DNA of 58,041 bases from a virus: positions 1-58,041 of the IMG/VR virus record IMGVR_UViG_3300045996_002471; one strand, written 5' to 3'. The notes under the pieces were generated by a model. It saw only the letters and a program-made list of their open reading frames with translations. It did no database searches and was not told the DNA's origin. The position numbers were made by a program, and so were the translations under genes. Positions 2,522 to 28,328 of the stretch are shown piece by piece. Position 1 is the first letter of the stretch, and every line of letters starts with the position of its first letter.

Positions 2522-2557
2522 GCCTTGCACCCGGACGGTCTCGTCCGGGTGCAAGGC
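2522..2557 (+). terminator. Perfect 15-bp hairpin between small gene and FtsK-like gene
   Basis: Positions 2522-2536 are the exact inverse complement of 2543-2557, with a 6-nt loop. There is no T-run on either side. It could terminate or attenuate transcription before the ATPase gene, or stabilise the upstream mRNA. Only 27 bp separate it from the ATPase start codon. Confidence 0.6.
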
Positions 2558-2584
2558 GGCCCGCCCGCCACGGAGGAACCCGTC

Positions 2585-4882
2585 ATGACCGTCCCGCCCA
2601 CCACCGCCCAGGTCGGATCCCAGGTGCTGCCCTACAACGGCGATCTCGCGTCGGTCGAGAAGCGGTTGCGCACCGAGCGGAAGTTGATGCTGCTGCCCGT
2701 GACCGGCGGGGCGGTTACCGTGTGGGCGGGGAGTGGGCTGCACGAGCAGATGCTGGCGGCGCTGGCCGTGGGCGGCCCGGAGATGCTGGCCATCGGGATC
2801 GGCGGGTCGGCGGCGGTGGCGACCGTGTCGACCGTTGTGCTGCTGGCCGCGGCGGCCCGGACGGGCACCGGTGACGCGCTGCCACATGTGGACGGGCACG
2901 TGAAGGGCCAGAAGCTGCTGGCGGTCCGCAGATTGCTGGCGGGTTCCGCGGGTGCGGGTGTGGCGTTGGCGGTCTTCGGCGGGCATCCGCTGATCGTCGG
3001 CGGCTACCTGGTGGCGGCGCTGATGTCCACCGGCCGCTGGCACCTCGAGCGGTTCCGTTCGCTTCGGGTGCTGAAGTCCGCCCGCGCCGAGATCTCACAG
3101 GCGGCGGTGCCCGCGCGGGGCGAGTCGCAGCCGACGGCCGAGGCGGAGGCCGTCGCGCCTGTCGCCCCGGTCGCGCCCGCTGAGATCGCCGAGATCGTGG
3201 AGCGGTGGCGGGTCGGTGTCGCGCCCAAGCACCTGCCGGGTACCTGGTTGACCAACGGGCAGGTTCACGACGAGGGCCGCATGTCGTTCGTGGTCAACTC
3301 CGGCCCGTCGGGTACCACTCTCGCCGCCGCACAGTCCGTGCTGGAGAAGCTTCCCGCAGCGCTGCGGCTGGCGCTGCCCGCGCCGGACGGTGGCGGCGGG
3401 CAGGACATCGTGTTCGACCAGCCCACCACCGGTGAGCTCGCCGACCGCTCACAGCTGCGGGTGCAGATCATCAACCGGTCGAGCAGGGCGGTGCGCGGCA
3501 GCCGGGTCACGCCCGAACTGGTGGTGTCGCCGACCAACCCGGGCGCGGCGCACATCGGCGGCTACGTCGACGATGCGAGCAACACGTGGTGGGACTTCGC
3601 CAGCGACTCCGGCGCCCACTCCGGCTTCGTGCTGGCCGGCACACGGCAGGGCAAGAGTTCGCTGTTCGACAACCTCGCCTACCGTGCCCGCCAGATGGGC
3701 TACCTGATCGCGTTCCTGGATCCGCAGCGCGGCGCGTCGTCTCCGGTGCTCGCGCAGCACGCCGACTTTCCTGTGCTCGGTGCCGAGCACACCCCCGAGT
3801 TCCATGCCTGGCTGGAGGCGGAGGCGGACCTGCGCGAGTCGTGGATGGGGGCCCACGGCCTGGGCAAAATCACCCCCTGGACACAGGCACCGTGTCGCCC
3901 CGGCGGGGAGCGTCCCGACCCTGACTGCCCGTGCGGCGGAGTCGTGCCGCCGGGGATCATGGCGTTCGTCGACGAGTGCGACCAGGTGTTCCGGCAGACC
4001 CTGCCCGGCACTACCACCACCCGGTGGGGTGGACCGTTCGGTGAGCAGGCCAAGCGCATCAACAAGCTCAACATGGGCTTGGTGACCGCCTCTCAGGTCC
4101 CCGAGCAGGCGATCTTCGGCGGCTCGGAGTTGCTGCGGTCCAGCCTGAGTACCCGCAACTTCCTGGCCATGAGGGTCAACGCCAACAGCGGCGCGGGCCT
4201 CATCCCCGGCCTGCCCTTCAACCCTTCGCTGCTGCCCCGCACCCCTGGGCGGGCGTTGATGTGCGGCGCCGAGTCCCGGCAGATGGAGGCCCAGTTGGAC
4301 TTCATGCCGCGCCGAGAGGACGCCGCGAAGCACGCCGGCCCGTACGCGGAGGACCTGTTCGAGCGGCTGCCGCGGGCACGCCAGTGGGCGCCGACCACGG
4401 CGGCTGCCCGCCGGTTGCTGCCCGCGCAGGGCGAGGACACGGCGGGGGTGTCGCGGCAGGCGGCGCGGAAGCGGTTGGCCCGGCTGATGAGCGGCGGGCA
4501 CGCCGAGCCGCGGGTATCGATCGCCGAGACCGTCCCTGCGGTGTCCACCGGGCCGGTGCCCGCCGCCGGCGGGTCGATGATTGCGTGGCCCGCCGCGGTG
4601 GGCGGCCCGGTCGCGGTCGCCGAGCGGCCCGCGACTGCGGGGACGCTGTCGGAGCGGCTGTTGCGTGCGCTGGACGGGCTGCCCGACGACCGGTGGGTGA
4701 CGATGGGCGACCTCGCCAAGCGCCTGGGTCGGGTCGCCGAGGACGCCGACACCCCCGAGGTGAAGGTGGCCGCGGCGTCGCTGGTGGCCGATCTGGCGGT
4801 CGAGGACGTCATGCTTCCCGGTCGACGCCGGACCGCGGGCATGTCCGCCACGGTCGGTCAGATCCGCGCGGTCCTGCAATGA
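2585..4882 (+). CDS. FtsK/SpoIIIE-type DNA translocase (TraB-like)
   Basis: 765 residues from ATG 2585 (GGAGG at 2572-2576). The N-terminus has several hydrophobic helices (about 40-125). The motor domain carries a Walker A, A-G-T-R-Q-G-K-S (about 352-359), and a Walker B, I-M-A-F-V-D-E-C-D (about 457-466). Between them is a Cys cluster (C-R-P-G then C-P-C-G-G). The C-terminus (about 690-765) looks like a small helical, winged-helix-type domain. This matches hexameric membrane-anchored dsDNA pumps; in actinomycete conjugative plasmids such proteins (TraB) move double-stranded DNA between mycelia. It sits among small membrane proteins and directly upstream of two short-repeat arrays, which fits TraB more than chromosomal FtsK. 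Some actinophages also encode FtsK-like proteins. Confidence 0.85.
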   Translation: MTVPPTTAQVGSQVLPYNGDLASVEKRLRTERKLMLLPVTGGAVTVWAGSGLHEQMLAALAVGGPEMLAIGIGGSAAVATVSTVVLLAAAARTGTGDALPHVDGHVKGQKLLAVRRLLAGSAGAGVALAVFGGHPLIVGGYLVAALMSTGRWHLERFRSLRVLKSARAEISQAAVPARGESQPTAEAEAVAPVAPVAPAEIAEIVERWRVGVAPKHLPGTWLTNGQVHDEGRMSFVVNSGPSGTTLAAAQSVLEKLPAALRLALPAPDGGGGQDIVFDQPTTGELADRSQLRVQIINRSSRAVRGSRVTPELVVSPTNPGAAHIGGYVDDASNTWWDFASDSGAHSGFVLAGTRQGKSSLFDNLAYRARQMGYLIAFLDPQRGASSPVLAQHADFPVLGAEHTPEFHAWLEAEADLRESWMGAHGLGKITPWTQAPCRPGGERPDPDCPCGGVVPPGIMAFVDECDQVFRQTLPGTTTTRWGGPFGEQAKRINKLNMGLVTASQVPEQAIFGGSELLRSSLSTRNFLAMRVNANSGAGLIPGLPFNPSLLPRTPGRALMCGAESRQMEAQLDFMPRREDAAKHAGPYAEDLFERLPRARQWAPTTAAARRLLPAQGEDTAGVSRQAARKRLARLMSGGHAEPRVSIAETVPAVSTGPVPAAGGSMIAWPAAVGGPVAVAERPATAGTLSERLLRALDGLPDDRWVTMGDLAKRLGRVAEDADTPEVKVAAASLVADLAVEDVMLPGRRRTAGMSATVGQIRAVLQ

Positions 4883-5222
4883 CATCACCCTCGGTGACGG
4901 AAAGCCCTGTCCGGATCGTCGGGCAGGGCTTCTCGCTTGGCCATGCAAGCTTGCATCGACCCATGCATTTTCGGCCATGCAAGCTTGCATCCCAATGCAA
5001 GGGTCGATGCAAGCTTGCATGGCCCATGACCTGCGAAAATGCAAGGTCGGGCGGGGTATGCAAGGGGTACCCTTGCATCTCGCCCAGTGGGCCGTTTTCG
5101 CAGGTCAGGGGCCTGTGTGCACGGATTCCCACCGTCACGCCGGCCCCCATGCATTCGTCGTCCTCGCGGGGCCGCCGCCCGTTCGCGGGGTCATCACCCA
5201 CTGTCACAGATCGGAGTCAGCA
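4883..5222. repeat. Non-coding region with nested ATGCAAG palindromes (candidate clt/oriT-like site)
   Basis: A 340-bp gap just after the FtsK-like gene. The 14-bp palindrome ATGCAAGCTTGCAT occurs at 4943-4956, 4977-4990 and 5007-5020. The first and third copies extend into 24-bp inverted copies of each other (4939-4962 and 5001-5024) centred almost on the second. A further perfect palindrome starting ATGCAAGGG lies at 5058-5078, inside a 13-bp inverted repeat TGACCTGCGAAAA (5027-5039) / TTTTCGCAGGTCA (5095-5107). Isolated ATGCAA copies occur at 4995 and 5039. Early on, 4908-4934 also forms a weak terminator-like hairpin. Such an array next to a traB-like gene is what one expects of a transfer locus or a multimeric protein binding site; the function is inferred. 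Confidence 0.75.
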
Positions 5223-5693
5223 GTGACCGACTCGACCGCCCTGCTCCTCGTGCTCGCCGCCGTTGCGTACGGGGTGTGGCACTGGCGCAACCGCTACACC
5301 GCGCCCGCCGCGCCGGGCGGACAGCTCGACACCGCGGAGTTGCGTGAGTTGGACATCGCGCTGGTGCGCTGCGAGCACCCCGACCATCACCCGGAGATGG
5401 TGCCGTTCGCGCCGGTCCGCTACCGGCACGCCCACGAGGACGTCCGCCAGCTCAGCCTCGACGGATGGGGAGCGACCGAGCGGATGAACACGTGCCGGGT
5501 GCACAACACCGCCGGCTGGGTCGGGGATCTGCACGTGCAGTGCTCGCAGCCCGGCTGCCAGACCCACCACCTGATCCCCGTAGCCGATCCCGAGGTGGGG
5601 ATGAGGGATCTGCGGAACCGGGGATGGTGCAACGTCGGGGACCGGGTGGTGTGTCCCTACTGCGCCGGTACCCGCTCCCGCGTCTGGCGCTGA
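5223..5693 (+). CDS. Membrane-anchored zinc-ribbon-like protein
   Basis: 156 residues from GTG 5223 (GGAG at 5213-5216). One N-terminal hydrophobic helix (about residues 4-18) is followed by a soluble domain. Cys/His pairs suggest a metal site: C-E-H near residue 47, C-R-V-H near 90, C-S-Q-P-G-C near 109, and a C-terminal C-P-Y-C knuckle. No family recognised. It lies between the two repeat arrays downstream of the FtsK-like gene, and copies of GGGGATC (5523) and GATCCCC (5573) already occur inside its coding sequence. Confidence 0.7.
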   Translation: MTDSTALLLVLAAVAYGVWHWRNRYTAPAAPGGQLDTAELRELDIALVRCEHPDHHPEMVPFAPVRYRHAHEDVRQLSLDGWGATERMNTCRVHNTAGWVGDLHVQCSQPGCQTHHLIPVADPEVGMRDLRNRGWCNVGDRVVCPYCAGTRSRVWR

Positions 5694-5828
5694 TCCCCGA
5701 TCCCCAGGGGAGTGCGGATCCCCACCTGCGATCCCCATCCGAGGTCCCCGCCGATCCCCACCTCGAACCCGCCCGCCGATCCCCACCGGCCCGCGGTCCC
5801 CACACCCCCGGTACCCACGTCGATCCCC
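5692..5828. repeat. GATCCCC heptamer array
   Basis: Seven exact GATCCCC copies in one orientation start at 5692, 5699, 5717, 5730, 5753, 5778 and 5822. Three GGTCCCC variants lie among them (near 5743, 5795 and 5837). They fill the roughly 150-bp gap between two genes. Given base composition, a 137-bp stretch should contain such a heptamer only rarely. The arrangement resembles recognition arrays of TraB/FtsK-family translocases or iterons. Confidence 0.75.
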
Positions 5829-5842
5829 AGGAGGTGGTCCCC

Positions 5843-6571
5843 GTGATGGGACGTACCCACGCCCTCACCGGCCTGTGCGCCGGCCTCGCCCTCGCGCCCG
5901 TCATGGCCGCGACGTTCGCGCAGTCGGTGCTGGTCGCGGTCGTGACCGCCGGATATGCACTGCTCCCGGACCTGGACCATCCCGGCGCCCGTGCCTCGCG
6001 CCTGCTCGGGCCGGTGACCGGGTTGCTGTCGCGGGCGGCCAGGGCGGGGAGCCGCTGGCTGTACGCGCGCACGAAAGGTCCCCGCGACGAACGCCACCGT
6101 GGGGAGCACCGGCACGCCACCCACACCGTCGCGTTCGCGGTGCTGGCGGGGATCGTGGCGGCGGCGGGTACCTGGGGAGCGGGGGCGTGGGTGGCGGCGG
6201 GGATCACCCTGCTGGGGACCCTGTTGGCGGTCGACGCGCTCGGGGACTGGCTGCTCCCCGTGGTGGGGATCGCGGGGATCGCGTGGTGGGGAGCGGCCGG
6301 CGGGGATGTCCTCGGGGAGTTGGCGGGGATCGGTCCGGCGTTGGGGATCGCGGTGGCGGTGGGGTGCGTGACGCACTGCCTCGGGGATGCGGTGACCCTG
6401 TCGGGGTGTCCGTTCCTGTGGCCGCTGCTGATCGCCGGGGAGACGTGGTACGAGCTGCGGCCGCCGCGGTGGTTGCGGTTCCGGACGGGCGGGGCGGTGG
6501 AGACGCGGGCGGTGTTCCCGGGGTTCGTGGTCTTAGCTGGGGCGTTGGCCCTCAACCTGCCACTGGGGTGA
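5843..6571 (+). CDS. YdjM/DUF457-like membrane-bound metal-dependent hydrolase
   Basis: 242 residues from GTG 5843, preferred over ATG 5846 because AGGAGG (5829-5834) is 8 nt upstream of the GTG. Family hallmarks are visible: the N-terminal G-R-T-H-A-L-T-G, a L-P-D-L-D-H-P segment (about 36-42), a His-rich R-H-R-G-E-H-R-H-A-T-H stretch (about 87-97), and the C-terminal H-C-L-G-D (about 178-182). Several membrane helices surround these. The family is predicted to hydrolyse an unknown substrate at the membrane. The gene is unusually rich in GGGGATC, encoding repeated Gly-Ile pairs. A strong bidirectional hairpin follows. Confidence 0.8.
   Translation: MMGRTHALTGLCAGLALAPVMAATFAQSVLVAVVTAGYALLPDLDHPGARASRLLGPVTGLLSRAARAGSRWLYARTKGPRDERHRGEHRHATHTVAFAVLAGIVAAAGTWGAGAWVAAGITLLGTLLAVDALGDWLLPVVGIAGIAWWGAAGGDVLGELAGIGPALGIAVAVGCVTHCLGDAVTLSGCPFLWPLLIAGETWYELRPPRWLRFRTGGAVETRAVFPGFVVLAGALALNLPLG
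6148..6349. repeat. GGGGATC repeats inside the hydrolase gene, inverted to the upstream array
   Basis: Exact GGGGATC copies start at 6148, 6199, 6265, 6274, 6325 and 6343, with near copies GGGGATG at 6302 and 6383. They are the reverse complement of the GATCCCC array at 5692-5828, so the two clusters point at each other across the start of the hydrolase gene. The repeats are in frame and encode Gly-Ile, so protein-level repetition is part of the explanation. Confidence 0.6.
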
Positions 6572-6580
6572 CTCGTCGAC

Positions 6581-6617
6581 ACGAGGGCCCCGCGCCAGAC
6601 TGGTGCGGGGCCCTCGT
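6581..6617. terminator. Bidirectional hairpin terminator
   Basis: A 13-bp perfect stem (6581-6593 with 6605-6617) and an 11-nt loop lie between converging genes ending at 6571 (plus) and 6631 (minus). The location and strength fit a shared intrinsic terminator, although no T-tract is present, as is common in actinomycetes. Confidence 0.75.
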
Positions 6618-6630
6618 CGTGCATGGGGGA

Positions 6631-7203
6631 TCAGTTCCCGAAGGCGATCAGGTGCTTGTACTCGCTGCCCACCCAGAGGGCCGCAGCGTGGTCCGTGTCG
6701 GTCAGCGCCTTGCGGTTCGACTCGGGGACCAGGTGGGCATCGCCGTGACGGAAGAGGTTGAGCAGGGCGGCGTCGACGTCGTCGACGTGGAAGCGGGCGA
6801 CCTCGTCGTGGTCGCGGATCTTGACCAGGCTGACCCAGTCCTGACCCTTGACAGCCAGGTTGAGGTAGGCGAGGTGGATGCCGGTTTCGACGTCGGTGAA
6901 CTGGCGCCCGGCGGCGGCGTCGTCCTCTTGGAAGAAGCCGTCTTCGATGGCCAGTAAGTGGTTGGCTTCGCCGCCGACCCAGAGGGCCGCGTCGTGGTCG
7001 TCCTGGGTCAACACCTTGCGGTTGGAGTCGGGGGCGAGGTGGACGTAGCCGGTCTGGACCATGGCGAGGAGCATCTCGTTCTGGGCCGCGGGGTCGGAAC
7101 TCAGCATGGGGCGGAGCTTGGCGAGGCGAACCCAGTCCTGCGGTTTCCGGCTGAGGTCGTCGTATGCGGCGACGATCTCGTCTTGGATCGAGTTGTAGTT
7201 CAC
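6631..7203 (-). CDS. Two-repeat acidic protein of unknown function
   Basis: 190 residues from GTG 7203 (CGGAGG upstream). The protein is an internal duplication. Residues about 7-86 align with about 105-188, both containing a D-W-V-(R/S)-L segment, a V/A-H-L-(A/V)-P-(D/E)-S-N-R-K segment and D-(H/T)-D-H-(D/A)-A-A-L-W-V-G ending in a H-L-(L/I)-A run. No signal peptide or membrane helix. It is the only minus-strand gene in the left block and is isolated, with its own leader. Function unknown. Confidence 0.75.
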   Translation of the reverse strand: MNYNSIQDEIVAAYDDLSRKPQDWVRLAKLRPMLSSDPAAQNEMLLAMVQTGYVHLAPDSNRKVLTQDDHDAALWVGGEANHLLAIEDGFFQEDDAAAGRQFTDVETGIHLAYLNLAVKGQDWVSLVKIRDHDEVARFHVDDVDAALLNLFRHGDAHLVPESNRKALTDTDHAAALWVGSEYKHLIAFGN

Positions 7204-8257: not shown

Positions 8258-9156
8258 CCGCCGTGGACCACAAGCCGCTGCACGAAGACGTCCCGACCGA
8301 GCACGCCTGGGTAACGGGTCGCAGGATCTACGTGCGGACCCCCAAAGACTCCGCGCTCAACCAGCAGCTGGTCGAGCTGGGCGCGAAGTGGGACCGGGAG
8401 GTCCGTGCCCGCTGGGTCGGTACCGGCAAACGGAACCGGGTCCTGCCGCTGGTACTGGCCGACGAGCGGCGCGAGCAGGCCGAGAAGCAGGCAGCGGCCG
8501 CGGTACTGGCCGCCGGTCGGTGGGTGCAGCTGCCGCGCAACGTCGACGGGGTGGTCACCGCCATGCATCAGCGCGCGGGCCGGTTGGGCGCGGTGTGGGA
8601 CGCCGAAAGCCGGCGATACGCGCTGCCCAGCGACGACGCCCGCGACCGACTCCAGCGACAGTTGGACACCTGGCTGGCCGAGCAGCAGGCCGACCGGGAG
8701 CGCACCGAAGCGCAGCGGCAGGCACGACGGCGCGCCGAGGCCGAGCAGGTCGAGCGGGAACTGGCCGAGGTGCGGCAGGTCGAGGCCGACCGTGCCCGTC
8801 GCCGCATCGAGCGGGCCGTCGCCGACAGTGGACGCACCGCAACCGGTGAGACGGTGACGGTGCGCCGCTACGACGAGCGGTACATGAACCGTGCGGGCGC
8901 CGAGCAGGTCGCCTGGCAGGTCGGCACGGTGCGCCGCCTCGCCGACGGCCGCCGCGGGCTGGTCGTCGACCGGCACATCCGGTTCTGGTCCGAGGACGAC
9001 GCCACCGAGTACTCCCACGAGGTCCAGTTGCCCGACAACGCGCACTGGGCGTTCACCTACACCCTCGCGGTGATCGAGCCCACCGATGACGAGCGGCAAG
9101 CCGACACGCTCGGCGCTCACTCCCAACCCCGCGACACCGCGGGAGGTATCTCGTGA
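8254..9156 (+). CDS. Coiled-coil protein of unknown function
   Basis: 300 residues from ATG 8254 (4-nt overlap with the preceding TGA; GTG 8263 is an alternative). The N-terminus (about 15-105) holds two similar segments that each end in a K-W-D/V-W-D ... R-(W/Y) pattern, suggesting a duplicated small beta domain. Residues about 130-190 form a long Glu/Arg/Ala coiled coil, followed by a globular C-terminus (about 195-270). No catalytic motif recognised. Confidence 0.68.
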   Translation: MTAVDHKPLHEDVPTEHAWVTGRRIYVRTPKDSALNQQLVELGAKWDREVRARWVGTGKRNRVLPLVLADERREQAEKQAAAAVLAAGRWVQLPRNVDGVVTAMHQRAGRLGAVWDAESRRYALPSDDARDRLQRQLDTWLAEQQADRERTEAQRQARRRAEAEQVERELAEVRQVEADRARRRIERAVADSGRTATGETVTVRRYDERYMNRAGAEQVAWQVGTVRRLADGRRGLVVDRHIRFWSEDDATEYSHEVQLPDNAHWAFTYTLAVIEPTDDERQADTLGAHSQPRDTAGGIS

Positions 9157-26378: not shown

Positions 26379-26408
26379 GCACGAAGTCCGTGATCAACAG
26401 GACTCAAG

Positions 26409-26684
26409 TGCAGGGTCTGCAGGGTCTGGTCTCCAAAATGCAGGGTTTGACACCTAATGTGGAAACGTGCCCTGACCAGGGATATGCAGGGTGTGCAGGG
26501 TTTGCAGGGTTTGTTTTCTACCCCTACACATAGCGCGCACACACGCACACGCACACGGACCTCTCCACGGACCCCGCAAACCCTGCACACCCTGCAAACC
26601 GCAGGTCAGGAAGCACGTCGTCTGGCCCCGCAAACCCTGCACCCAGACCCTGCAGACCCTGCAGCGCCACCCGCAAACCCTGCA
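26409..26684. repeat. Six plus six converging TGCAGGGT iterons (candidate phage origin)
   Basis: TGCAGGGT starts at 26409, 26418, 26439, 26485, 26494 and 26503. Its reverse complement ACCCTGCA starts at 26580, 26589, 26634, 26647, 26656 and 26677. Most neighbours within a group are 9 bp apart. The 70-bp centre is richer in A/T and contains CACACG-type repeats. The whole gap 26311-26747 has no gene and lies between the accessory operon promoter and the helicase gene, the usual place for a phage origin. Confidence 0.75.
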
Positions 26685-26747
26685 GACACGACGACGCCCG
26701 GCAGCCGAACGCGCCACGGGACACCGACACCACCTGCTCCACAGTCA

Positions 26748-28328
26748 TCACTCCACGACCACCACGCGGTACCGCCACGTCTTCGTCCGGTCCTTCGCAC
26801 GCATCAGCTTCAGCCCGCGGCCCTGGTCATCCAGACCGAGCACAGCGCCCCGCTTGTCCGACAACTTCTTCCCAAGCGCTTTGGACGAGGTGAACTGGTC
26901 GATCCCCAGCGGAAGCTCCGGCACCGCCGCCGAACCGTGCTCGGACTTCAACGCCGCCAACACCTCGCCGGCGGTCGCGCCGTCGGCTTTGACCTTGCCG
27001 ATGTCCTCGAGCAGCCGGTACACCAACGCGAACTGTTCCCACTGCTGGGTCTCTTCGTCGACCTCGTCTAGCTGCTCGATGCGTCCGTGCATGAGGCCTT
27101 CGATGCCAGCGTTGCGGAGGATGCCGTCGATGACGCGGCACCAGGACTCGAACGAGGGCAGGATGGCGGTGCCTTCGGGTTGGCCGGCGGCGATCCATGC
27201 CTGCACCAGGGTGGCGAGGGCACCTTGGATGCGGCCGCGGTTGACGCGTGCCCATCGGTCGAGGTCTTTGTGGCGCCAGGTCGTGTAGTCGCGGGGGTGC
27301 GGTTCGATGCGCACGATCATGGAGCGGCGGGCCATCTCGGCGGACATGGACATGCCGTTGCCGGTGACGACCCACGCTGCCGGGGAGGCGAGTTCGATGT
27401 TGTCGGAGGTGCCGAGGATGCGGGCTTCCCAGGCGGGGTAGGCGGTGACGGCGGCGGCGAACGTGCCGGAGTCGATGGTGTCGTTGACGTTGTCGAACAC
27501 CATGACCGCGCGTCCCTTGCGGGCTTGGGAGACGAGGGCCTTGCCCCATTCTTCGCTGGTGGTGGGCGCGGTGGGCAGGGTGCTGTCGCCGACGGCGTGG
27601 CCGGTGACCATGCGGGTGAGCTTGGTCTTGCCGCTGCCGGCGGAGGGGGCGTCGAGGACGTACAGGGGCCGGGGCCCGTTGATGAGTTCGGTGACCATCG
27701 GGGTGAGCATCAGGCCGAGGAGCGCGGCCAGGTCGCCAGCCGGGTTGGTGAGGAGGAAGTCGCCGAGGAGGTCTTCACAGAGCAGCGCGAGCGCCTCTTG
27801 TACGTCGGTTTCGGTGGGCTTGTCGGGGATGTGGGGGACTTCGACGCCGCTCTCGGGGGCGAAGTAGGTAGCGGACTCCCAGATGTAGCCAGGCTGGTCG
27901 TGGTAGCCGCCGCGGCTGTCGAATGTGGGGCACATGGTGACTTGCTTGAGCCTGGGCAGGCCGAGCGCGTGGGCGCGGTCGTAGAGGCCTGACAGGTCGT
28001 CGAGTGCGGGTTTGGTGGCGACGAGCGCCCCACCCTTCTTGGCGTCGGTGCGCATGGTTTTGACCATGGCGACGACGCGGGACCGGAACGCGGAGGGGGT
28101 CATGTCGCGGAGTGCAGGGGCTTCGCCGTCGCGGCCGAGGTCGACTTCGACGAGGCGTCCAGAGCGGATGTAGACGAGCGGGTTGTGGTCGCGGGCGTTT
28201 CGGGTCTCGATGTGTTTGGCGAGTTCGAGTTCGAGTTCGTGGAGGTCGCGGTCGTTGATCACGACGACGGGCCGTTCTTGGGGTTCGGGGGTGGTGGGCC
28301 GCGCGGAGGCGAGGCGGAGGTTGTTCAC
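26748..28328 (-). CDS. SF3/AAA+-like phage replicative helicase
   Basis: 526 residues from GTG 28328 (GTGA overlap with the upstream gene). Walker A P-S-A-G-S-G-K-T (about 228-235), Walker B A-V-M-V-F-D-N (about 274-280) and a W-V-V-T-G-N-G sensor segment (about 319-325) followed by R-R are typical of superfamily-3-like helicases fused to plasmid/phage initiation proteins. The N-terminus (1-200) is a separate domain and the C-terminus is probably a small winged helix. It would unwind the origin; the iteron array is immediately downstream at 26409-26684. No phage DNA polymerase or primase is visible, so the host replisome is likely used. Confidence 0.82.
   Translation of the reverse strand: MNNLRLASARPTTPEPQERPVVVINDRDLHELELELAKHIETRNARDHNPLVYIRSGRLVEVDLGRDGEAPALRDMTPSAFRSRVVAMVKTMRTDAKKGGALVATKPALDDLSGLYDRAHALGLPRLKQVTMCPTFDSRGGYHDQPGYIWESATYFAPESGVEVPHIPDKPTETDVQEALALLCEDLLGDFLLTNPAGDLAALLGLMLTPMVTELINGPRPLYVLDAPSAGSGKTKLTRMVTGHAVGDSTLPTAPTTSEEWGKALVSQARKGRAVMVFDNVNDTIDSGTFAAAVTAYPAWEARILGTSDNIELASPAAWVVTGNGMSMSAEMARRSMIVRIEPHPRDYTTWRHKDLDRWARVNRGRIQGALATLVQAWIAAGQPEGTAILPSFESWCRVIDGILRNAGIEGLMHGRIEQLDEVDEETQQWEQFALVYRLLEDIGKVKADGATAGEVLAALKSEHGSAAVPELPLGIDQFTSSKALGKKLSDKRGAVLGLDDQGRGLKLMRAKDRTKTWRYRVVVVE

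Follow-up and report, generated by a model that had tools for sequence, protein, structure and literature searches.

The KOPS and SRS sequences of FtsK and SpoIIIE are short words that are read by the C-terminal winged helix of a DNA pump. Conjugative plasmids of Streptomyces that move double-stranded DNA have a cis-acting locus of transfer (clt). The clt of the Streptomyces plasmid pWTY27, which has been footprinted, extends from 16 bp before the end of traA to 159 bp beyond it, contains 7-bp repeats and inverted repeats, is bound by TraA and is needed for transfer (PMC3583192). In the account given in the same source, TraB of pSVH1 reads 8-bp words through helix α3 of its C-terminal winged helix (PMC3583192). 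A different kind of site, sps, consists of short palindromes repeated two to three times in an spd-tra plasmid of the pIJ101 type and is bound by the plasmid protein SpdA2 (PMC4170104).

Many actinophage genomes carry an annotated gene for an FtsK-like translocase to which no role has been assigned. The locus described here lies beside such a gene in an IMG/VR virus record of 58,041 bases, which is referred to in full as the window and which, like the other virus records compared, is possibly a fragment. We lean towards reading it as a clt-like docking site of a phage-borne spd-tra module; being conserved, helically phased and linked to translocase genes, the site lets the role of the translocase be tested.

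Gene module and anatomy of the cluster

The window carries genes for a terminase, a tape-measure-like protein and a tyrosine integrase. Its module around the cluster is shared by four further phage records (L005, L129, L130 and L144; FtsK identity 43–65%), which together with the window make up lineage 1. A terminase homologue is present in three of these four relatives, and one record has 99-bp end repeats. The module comprises the following features of the window.

331–1173, + strand: DUF2637/SpdB-like membrane protein gene, start uncertain; the C-terminal ~70 residues are kept in relatives
1208–1687, + strand: small membrane protein of the spd-tra module; homologues at the equivalent position in G004 and L144
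2138–2515, + strand: small helical protein 5′ of the translocase gene, start uncertain; homologues in G002, G003, G004 and L144
2525–4882, + strand: FtsK/HerA-superfamily (TraB-like) DNA translocase gene, start uncertain; 785-codon open reading frame assigned by profile alignments
4902–4931, + strand: hairpin resembling a terminator, 3′ of the translocase gene and ahead of the word array; the same hairpin occupies the equivalent position in L005 and L129/L134, and L130 has a similar hairpin-like sequence
5223–5693, + strand: gene for a membrane-anchored, Cys/His-rich small protein, next in the module; positional counterpart in L005, L129, L130 and L144
5692–5828, + strand: GATCCCC array, an element separate from the palindrome cluster; GATCCCC or GGTACCC arrays at the equivalent position in relatives
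5846–6571, + strand: YdjM-like membrane metal-dependent hydrolase gene, which closes the module; PF04307 E-value of 7e-21, 73–76% identity in four relatives

The L005 homologue of the SpdB-like protein matches DUF2637 with an E-value of 2.6e-4, just under the gathering score, and the L005 module also encodes a GntR/UTRA regulator. The DUF2637/SpdB-like gene and the small genes, with the GntR/UTRA gene in L005, are the gene set of Streptomyces/AICE-type conjugation. The GATCCCC array continues into the YdjM-like coding sequence, where GGGGATC falls on the opposite strand at Gly-Ile codons (window 5523–6632); in L005 (11090–11900) both the gap and the YdjM-like gene use GGTACC instead, at Gly-Thr codons. 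It seems that selection acts on a short word in coding and non-coding DNA alike, and that the word is replaced by another from one relative to the next. Further along the window, ARAGORN calls a tRNA-Arg (CCG) at 8907–9003, within an apparent coding region, and the call may be spurious.

The translocase has a Walker A motif GTRQGKSS and a Walker B motif FVDECD, of which the GKS and the acidic Walker B residue are invariant. A profile of the protein and eight homologues aligns in HHalign with pIJ101 Tra (E-value of 9.1e-8) and Escherichia coli FtsK (E-value of 9e-7); its first PDB matches are HerA (E-value of 0.004) and FtsK (E-value of 0.013). A search with the Pfam FtsK/SpoIIIE family PF01580 gave no match for any lineage 1 translocase homologue. 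The relationship is remote, and the protein is therefore called TraB-like, without a claim of orthology to TraB. The AlphaFold models, one of the full-length translocase and one of its motor part, were poor (mean pLDDT of 37 and 43) and were set aside, and a structure search using the whole-protein model found no useful match; the FtsK assignment therefore rests on the profiles. The C-terminal part (residues 681–761, approximately 4637–4879) is modelled as a winged helix, with the expected order of elements and pLDDT mostly 70–85 apart from one 10-residue block at 45, the remainder of the translocase model being of low confidence.

The cluster is bounded by the stop codon of the translocase reading frame (2525–4882) and the reading frame at 5223–5693, and it lies 60 bp 3′ of the translocase gene. 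Its parts are as follows.

4943–4956, no strand: palindrome ATGCAAGCTTGCAT, copy 1, with two TGCA words
4963–4968, no strand: ATGCAT word
4977–4990, no strand: palindrome ATGCAAGCTTGCAT, copy 2
4995–5001, + strand: ATGCAAG word
5007–5020, no strand: palindrome ATGCAAGCTTGCAT, copy 3
5027–5039, + strand: constant word D, TGACCTGCGAAAA, with two copies in all five elements
5039–5045, + strand: ATGCAAG word within the D pair
5058–5078, no strand: inverted pair ATGCAAGGG-GTA-CCCTTGCAT within the D pair, with a 3-bp spacer; counterpart GTGCAAGGGGTACCCCATGCAC in L005
5095–5107, − strand: constant word D′, the inverted copy of D
5117–5154, no strand: trailing TGCA words (5118–5121, and ATGCAT at 5149–5154); such words also trail the pair in lineage 2 and in each of the four relatives

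The first-pass annotation described three palindromes, two of them extended as 24-bp inverted copies around the third with nearly coinciding dyads, and this arrangement is borne out. Copies 1 and 3 of ATGCAAGCTTGCAT extend to perfect 24-bp inverted copies (4939–4962, GGCCATGCAAGCTTGCATCGACCC, and 5001–5024) and further to 31-bp arms with one mismatch around the middle palindrome (4939–4969 and 4994–5024), the dyad of the outer arms lying at 4981.5 and that of the middle palindrome at 4983.5. The annotation also placed a palindrome inside a 13-bp inverted repeat. The repeat of TGACCTGCGAAAA is present, and extends to 19 bp with one mismatch (5021–5039 and 5095–5113), but what it encloses is the inverted pair around the GTA spacer and not a perfect palindrome.

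The rarity claimed for this layering holds for the identity of the repeats and not for the number of palindromes. At least three perfect palindromes of at least 12 bp within 140 bp occurred in 32 of 200 first-order Markov sequences of the window's composition, and palindrome number was accordingly rejected as the unusual feature, since three in 140 bp are not rare in DNA this GC-rich. All ten ATGCAAG words of the 58-kb window fall within 136 bp (4943–5078); 2.07 are expected in the whole window, and none of 100 shuffles reached ten. Three identical copies of ATGCAAGCTTGCAT and ten ATGCAAG words within 136 bp are not a product of chance.

Conserved words and helical phasing in two lineages

In the gap that follows the translocase gene, the window and its four relatives carry 13, 11, 8, 8 and 7 TGCA-core words, compared with approximately one per 340 bp elsewhere. 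Across the four records checked for this (the window, G002, G003 and G004), this gap is the place of the entire record where TGCA is densest. The letters that flank the core vary: ATGCAAG in the window, GTGCAAG/ATGCAC in L005, TTGCAGG in L129 and L130, and CATGCA in L144. Word D (TGACCTGCGRAAA) is present twice in all five elements, 66–78 bp apart; the second copy is inverted in three of them and direct in L129 and L144, where in L144 it has three mismatches. The exact nested palindromes are confined to the window and absent from the four relatives, and the exact palindrome pair, used as a search key, matched no viral contig. The layered symmetry is thus exact in this element and particular to it, while the words and the flanking D pair persist where the palindromes as such do not. 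The refuting condition set in the first-pass annotation, that palindromes be missing from relatives of the element, thus has a mixed outcome.

Across the five gaps, the TGCA words start at positions with a common period of 10.75 bp, at which the summed Rayleigh value (23.1) is the maximum over 7–16 bp. None of 2,000 random placements reached this value, and it was reached in 1.45% of trials when the observed spacings were permuted. The result relied on is the one from all words with a free period, not from hand-picked subarrays; the five elements are not fully independent, and three subsets of three elements agree on the phasing. Words that lie on one helix face over approximately 200 bp indicate a multi-protein complex and not a folded strand. 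The first-pass annotation's suggestion of binding by a dimeric or multimeric protein gains support from this, as words kept in four other elements and helically phased are what a predicted protein-binding array would look like.

More distant plasmid relatives of the translocase (Amycolatopsis, Saccharothrix and Nocardiopsis) have hairpins only and no dense word cluster 3′ of the gene. In the Amycolatopsis plasmid pAS20800 (L126, 8479–8528), a perfect 21-bp inverted repeat of TGCGAGG words directly follows the translocase gene and may be a terminator or a docking site.

When IMG/VR was scanned for D in inverted pairs, with all spacers from 42 to 70 allowed, 25 stretches were returned; an earlier scan for the D word was rejected as too loose, its matches being mostly chance, and a single scan of cellular genomes gave no useful lead. 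Two of the 25 are L005 and L130. Among the other 23, 20 are actinophage contigs that encode a second kind of spd-tra module (lineage 2), and three without spd or tra genes (79, 85 and 90 bp) look like chance. The lineage 2 pair measures 73 bp end to end in 17 of the 20 contigs, which are partly near-identical, and 72–74 bp in the others. BLAST detected no similarity between the lineage 2 translocase and that of the window; the lineage 2 Tra has 37% identity with pIJ101 Tra (E-value of 4e-45) and likewise 37% with the FtsK-like protein that Streptomyces phage YDN12 encodes.

In every lineage 2 contig that covers both sides, the D pair has an spd-like gene on one side and, on the other, the tra gene preceded by a small partner gene. 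The translocase gene adjoins the site in the five lineage 1 elements and in 17 of the 20 lineage 2 contigs, the other three of which end near the pair. The words around the lineage 2 pair are GGCAC/GTGCC (GGCACAC), with 7–11 copies compared with approximately one expected, and they are phased at 10.25 bp. Both lineages have the same layout of array, D, inner words, D′ and trailing words. The frame is thus constant and the words are lineage-specific; this holds for both translocase lineages, whether the site follows or precedes the translocase gene. By its gene context the site is one that travels with spd-tra modules, which makes it a candidate for the transfer-type site, separate from the GATCCCC array, that the first-pass annotation had proposed.

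The D word and similar arrays also occur elsewhere. At 26400–26700 of the window, approximately 12 TGCA-core iterons of the TGCAGGG type (TTTGCAGGGT/ACCCTGCAAA) are split by an AC-rich stretch into two opposed halves and lie 3′ of a primase/helicase gene (26748–28328). This array is probably a replication origin, and the D-word core, TGACCTGCGG, occurs in it once, at 26.6 kb. A perfect D word (CCCCCTGACCTGCGAAAACGTG) lies in a 1-kb non-coding gap upstream of repL in the Streptomyces anulatus plasmid CP109288 (L178, 4002), and several other Streptomyces plasmids have similar weak intergenic matches. At the end of the Gordonia phage Bantam record (L176, 139–505), seven TGACCTGCG words fall within approximately 370 bp of non-coding DNA, with no annotated translocase gene within the 6 kb examined. 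Such occurrences away from tra suggest that D may serve replication or a host factor; the literature searched does not mention the D word in a relevant context. In phage YDN12 (L177, 2600–2921), all six GGAACGG/CCGTTCC words of a 5-kb stretch lie in the gap before the annotated FtsK-like gene, on this annotation a third word beside a third translocase.

Candidate function and rival explanations

The cluster is proposed to work like clt and is treated as a candidate on its anatomy, its linkage and its lineage-specific words, without being filed as clt. It has several repeated words of 5–9 bp and inverted repeats within approximately 50–200 bp, and its words (ATGCAAG, GTGCAAG/ATGCAC, TTGCAGG and GGCACAC) differ by element or lineage. 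The transfer function, and the pairing of proteins with words, we infer by analogy. The lineage-specific words on one helix face would be read by an element-specific DNA-binding domain, for which the winged helix at the C-terminus of the adjacent FtsK/TraB-like translocase is the likeliest candidate. A second, conserved factor would read the constant pair; it could be a host protein or one of the Spd proteins, with a helix-turn-helix at its C-terminus. The match in anatomy to pWTY27 clt and pSVH1 TraB is what points to the winged helix for the variable words and to a conserved partner for D. Bound together, the two would seed a nucleoprotein complex that serves as the assembly platform of the translocase hexamer, and the hexamer would then pump circular double-stranded phage or prophage DNA across a septum or hyphal contact, in transfer or mycelial spreading. 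The array would be a docking site at which the pump, or proteins working with it, probably take hold of the viral DNA for its passage from cell to cell in filamentous soil bacteria.

Several points count against the clt-like reading. The words are mostly palindromic or inverted and by themselves give a directional motor no polarity, and known TraB sites are described mainly as direct repeats. The D word is also present at places away from tra. The distant plasmid relatives of the translocase lack a comparable array in that position. Differences between the words and between the winged helices do not separate coevolution from shared descent, as far as can be judged from the five sequences that make up the lineage 1 comparison and the two protein clades that they form.

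A replication origin, which the first-pass annotation had also raised, is the main rival but seems unlikely. The words would then be initiator iterons and the D pair a host-factor site, with the linkage to tra genes arising from module shuffling. Repeat arrays do typify theta origins, such as that of pWTY27 (PMC3583192), and a D word lies near repL in a Streptomyces plasmid. Cumulative GC skew reaches its minimum at 2.6–6 kb in the window and, in circular G004, close to the array, but in G003 the minimum (50.6 kb) and the array (3.1 kb) are far apart; with a loose fit in two records and a failure in the third, the skew was rejected as proof of an origin at the array. The separate TGCAGGG array at 26.4–26.7 kb occupies the usual place of an origin, beside the primase/helicase gene, and disfavours a second one here. 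That gene was not found in G002–G004, which keep the cluster. The neighbours of the cluster are translocase and membrane genes, with no replication initiator gene among them, and the linkage with spd-tra genes extends over 25 elements in two lineages.

An operator array, on which a repressor would silence the downstream genes in lineage 1 or the tra gene in lineage 2, is doubtful to a similar degree. Co-directional genes follow the array in both lineages, the terminator-like hairpin upstream fits the start of a new transcription unit, and the GntR/UTRA protein of the L005 module would be a regulator at hand. Against this, 7–13 words over approximately 250 bp exceed what an ordinary operator needs, the words occupy a single locus of the window (10 of 10 for ATGCAAG), and the two lineages do not order their genes in the same way around the array.

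A site for partition or stability that resembles a centromere (parS) is less probable still. Palindromes in helical phase, recognised by one of the small module proteins, would fit it, and a stability system is documented for a tra plasmid: in pIJ101, binding of SpdA2 to the sps palindromes affects segregational stability (PMC4170104). The sps site, however, is a 12-bp palindrome in two to three repeats, within or next to spdA and kept between plasmids, whereas the words here are lineage-specific; and because the window encodes a tyrosine integrase, partition would be needed less.

Folding of the long inverted repeats into a cruciform or an RNA element, favoured by the folding z-score of the window (−10.7) and suggested as cruciform extrusion in the first-pass annotation, is very improbable and already largely refuted by the relatives: folding is not conserved in those that keep the words (z-scores of −5.4, −3.6 and −0.6), and the second D copy is direct, not inverted, in L129 and L144.

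The clt-like reading admits a more specific form, which is put forward tentatively. The locus could be a previously undescribed two-part origin of DNA transfer in actinophages, in which the constant inverted pair (~73–81 bp) would be bound by a conserved factor and the lineage-specific, helically phased words by each phage's own translocase; temperate phages might thus spread as double-stranded DNA by a conjugation-like route besides virions. If the clt-like reading is true, a conjugation-like pathway has both its pump and its cis site on certain temperate phages that infect filamentous actinobacteria. The layout of a fixed pair with variable words also offers a natural series on how a winged helix changes its DNA word.

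Comparison with known systems

The words of KOPS are dispersed and polar, whereas those of the phage cluster are confined to one locus and palindromic. The Streptomyces phages YDN12, TP1604 and Xkcd426 share with the window a phage-borne gene of the FtsK type. YDN12 also shares a short-word array in the adjacent gap, but its word is GGAACGG, and a single near-D copy (GACTGACCTGC) was seen there, with no D pair. The sps palindromes differ from the cluster in sequence and layout; they lie in or next to spdA, are kept across plasmids and affect stability, not transfer.

The clt loci differ from the phage cluster in three respects. The latter is located on temperate phages, where a clt-like function is putative; its words are mostly palindromes or inverted pairs in helical register; and a constant pair frames its inner words. 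The clt loci of pWTY27, pIJ101, pJV1 and pSVH1, like the cluster, lie beside or near a gene for an FtsK-type translocase of double-stranded DNA, and they combine repeated words of 5–9 bp with inverted repeats over approximately 50–175 bp, the words differing between plasmids (PMC3583192).
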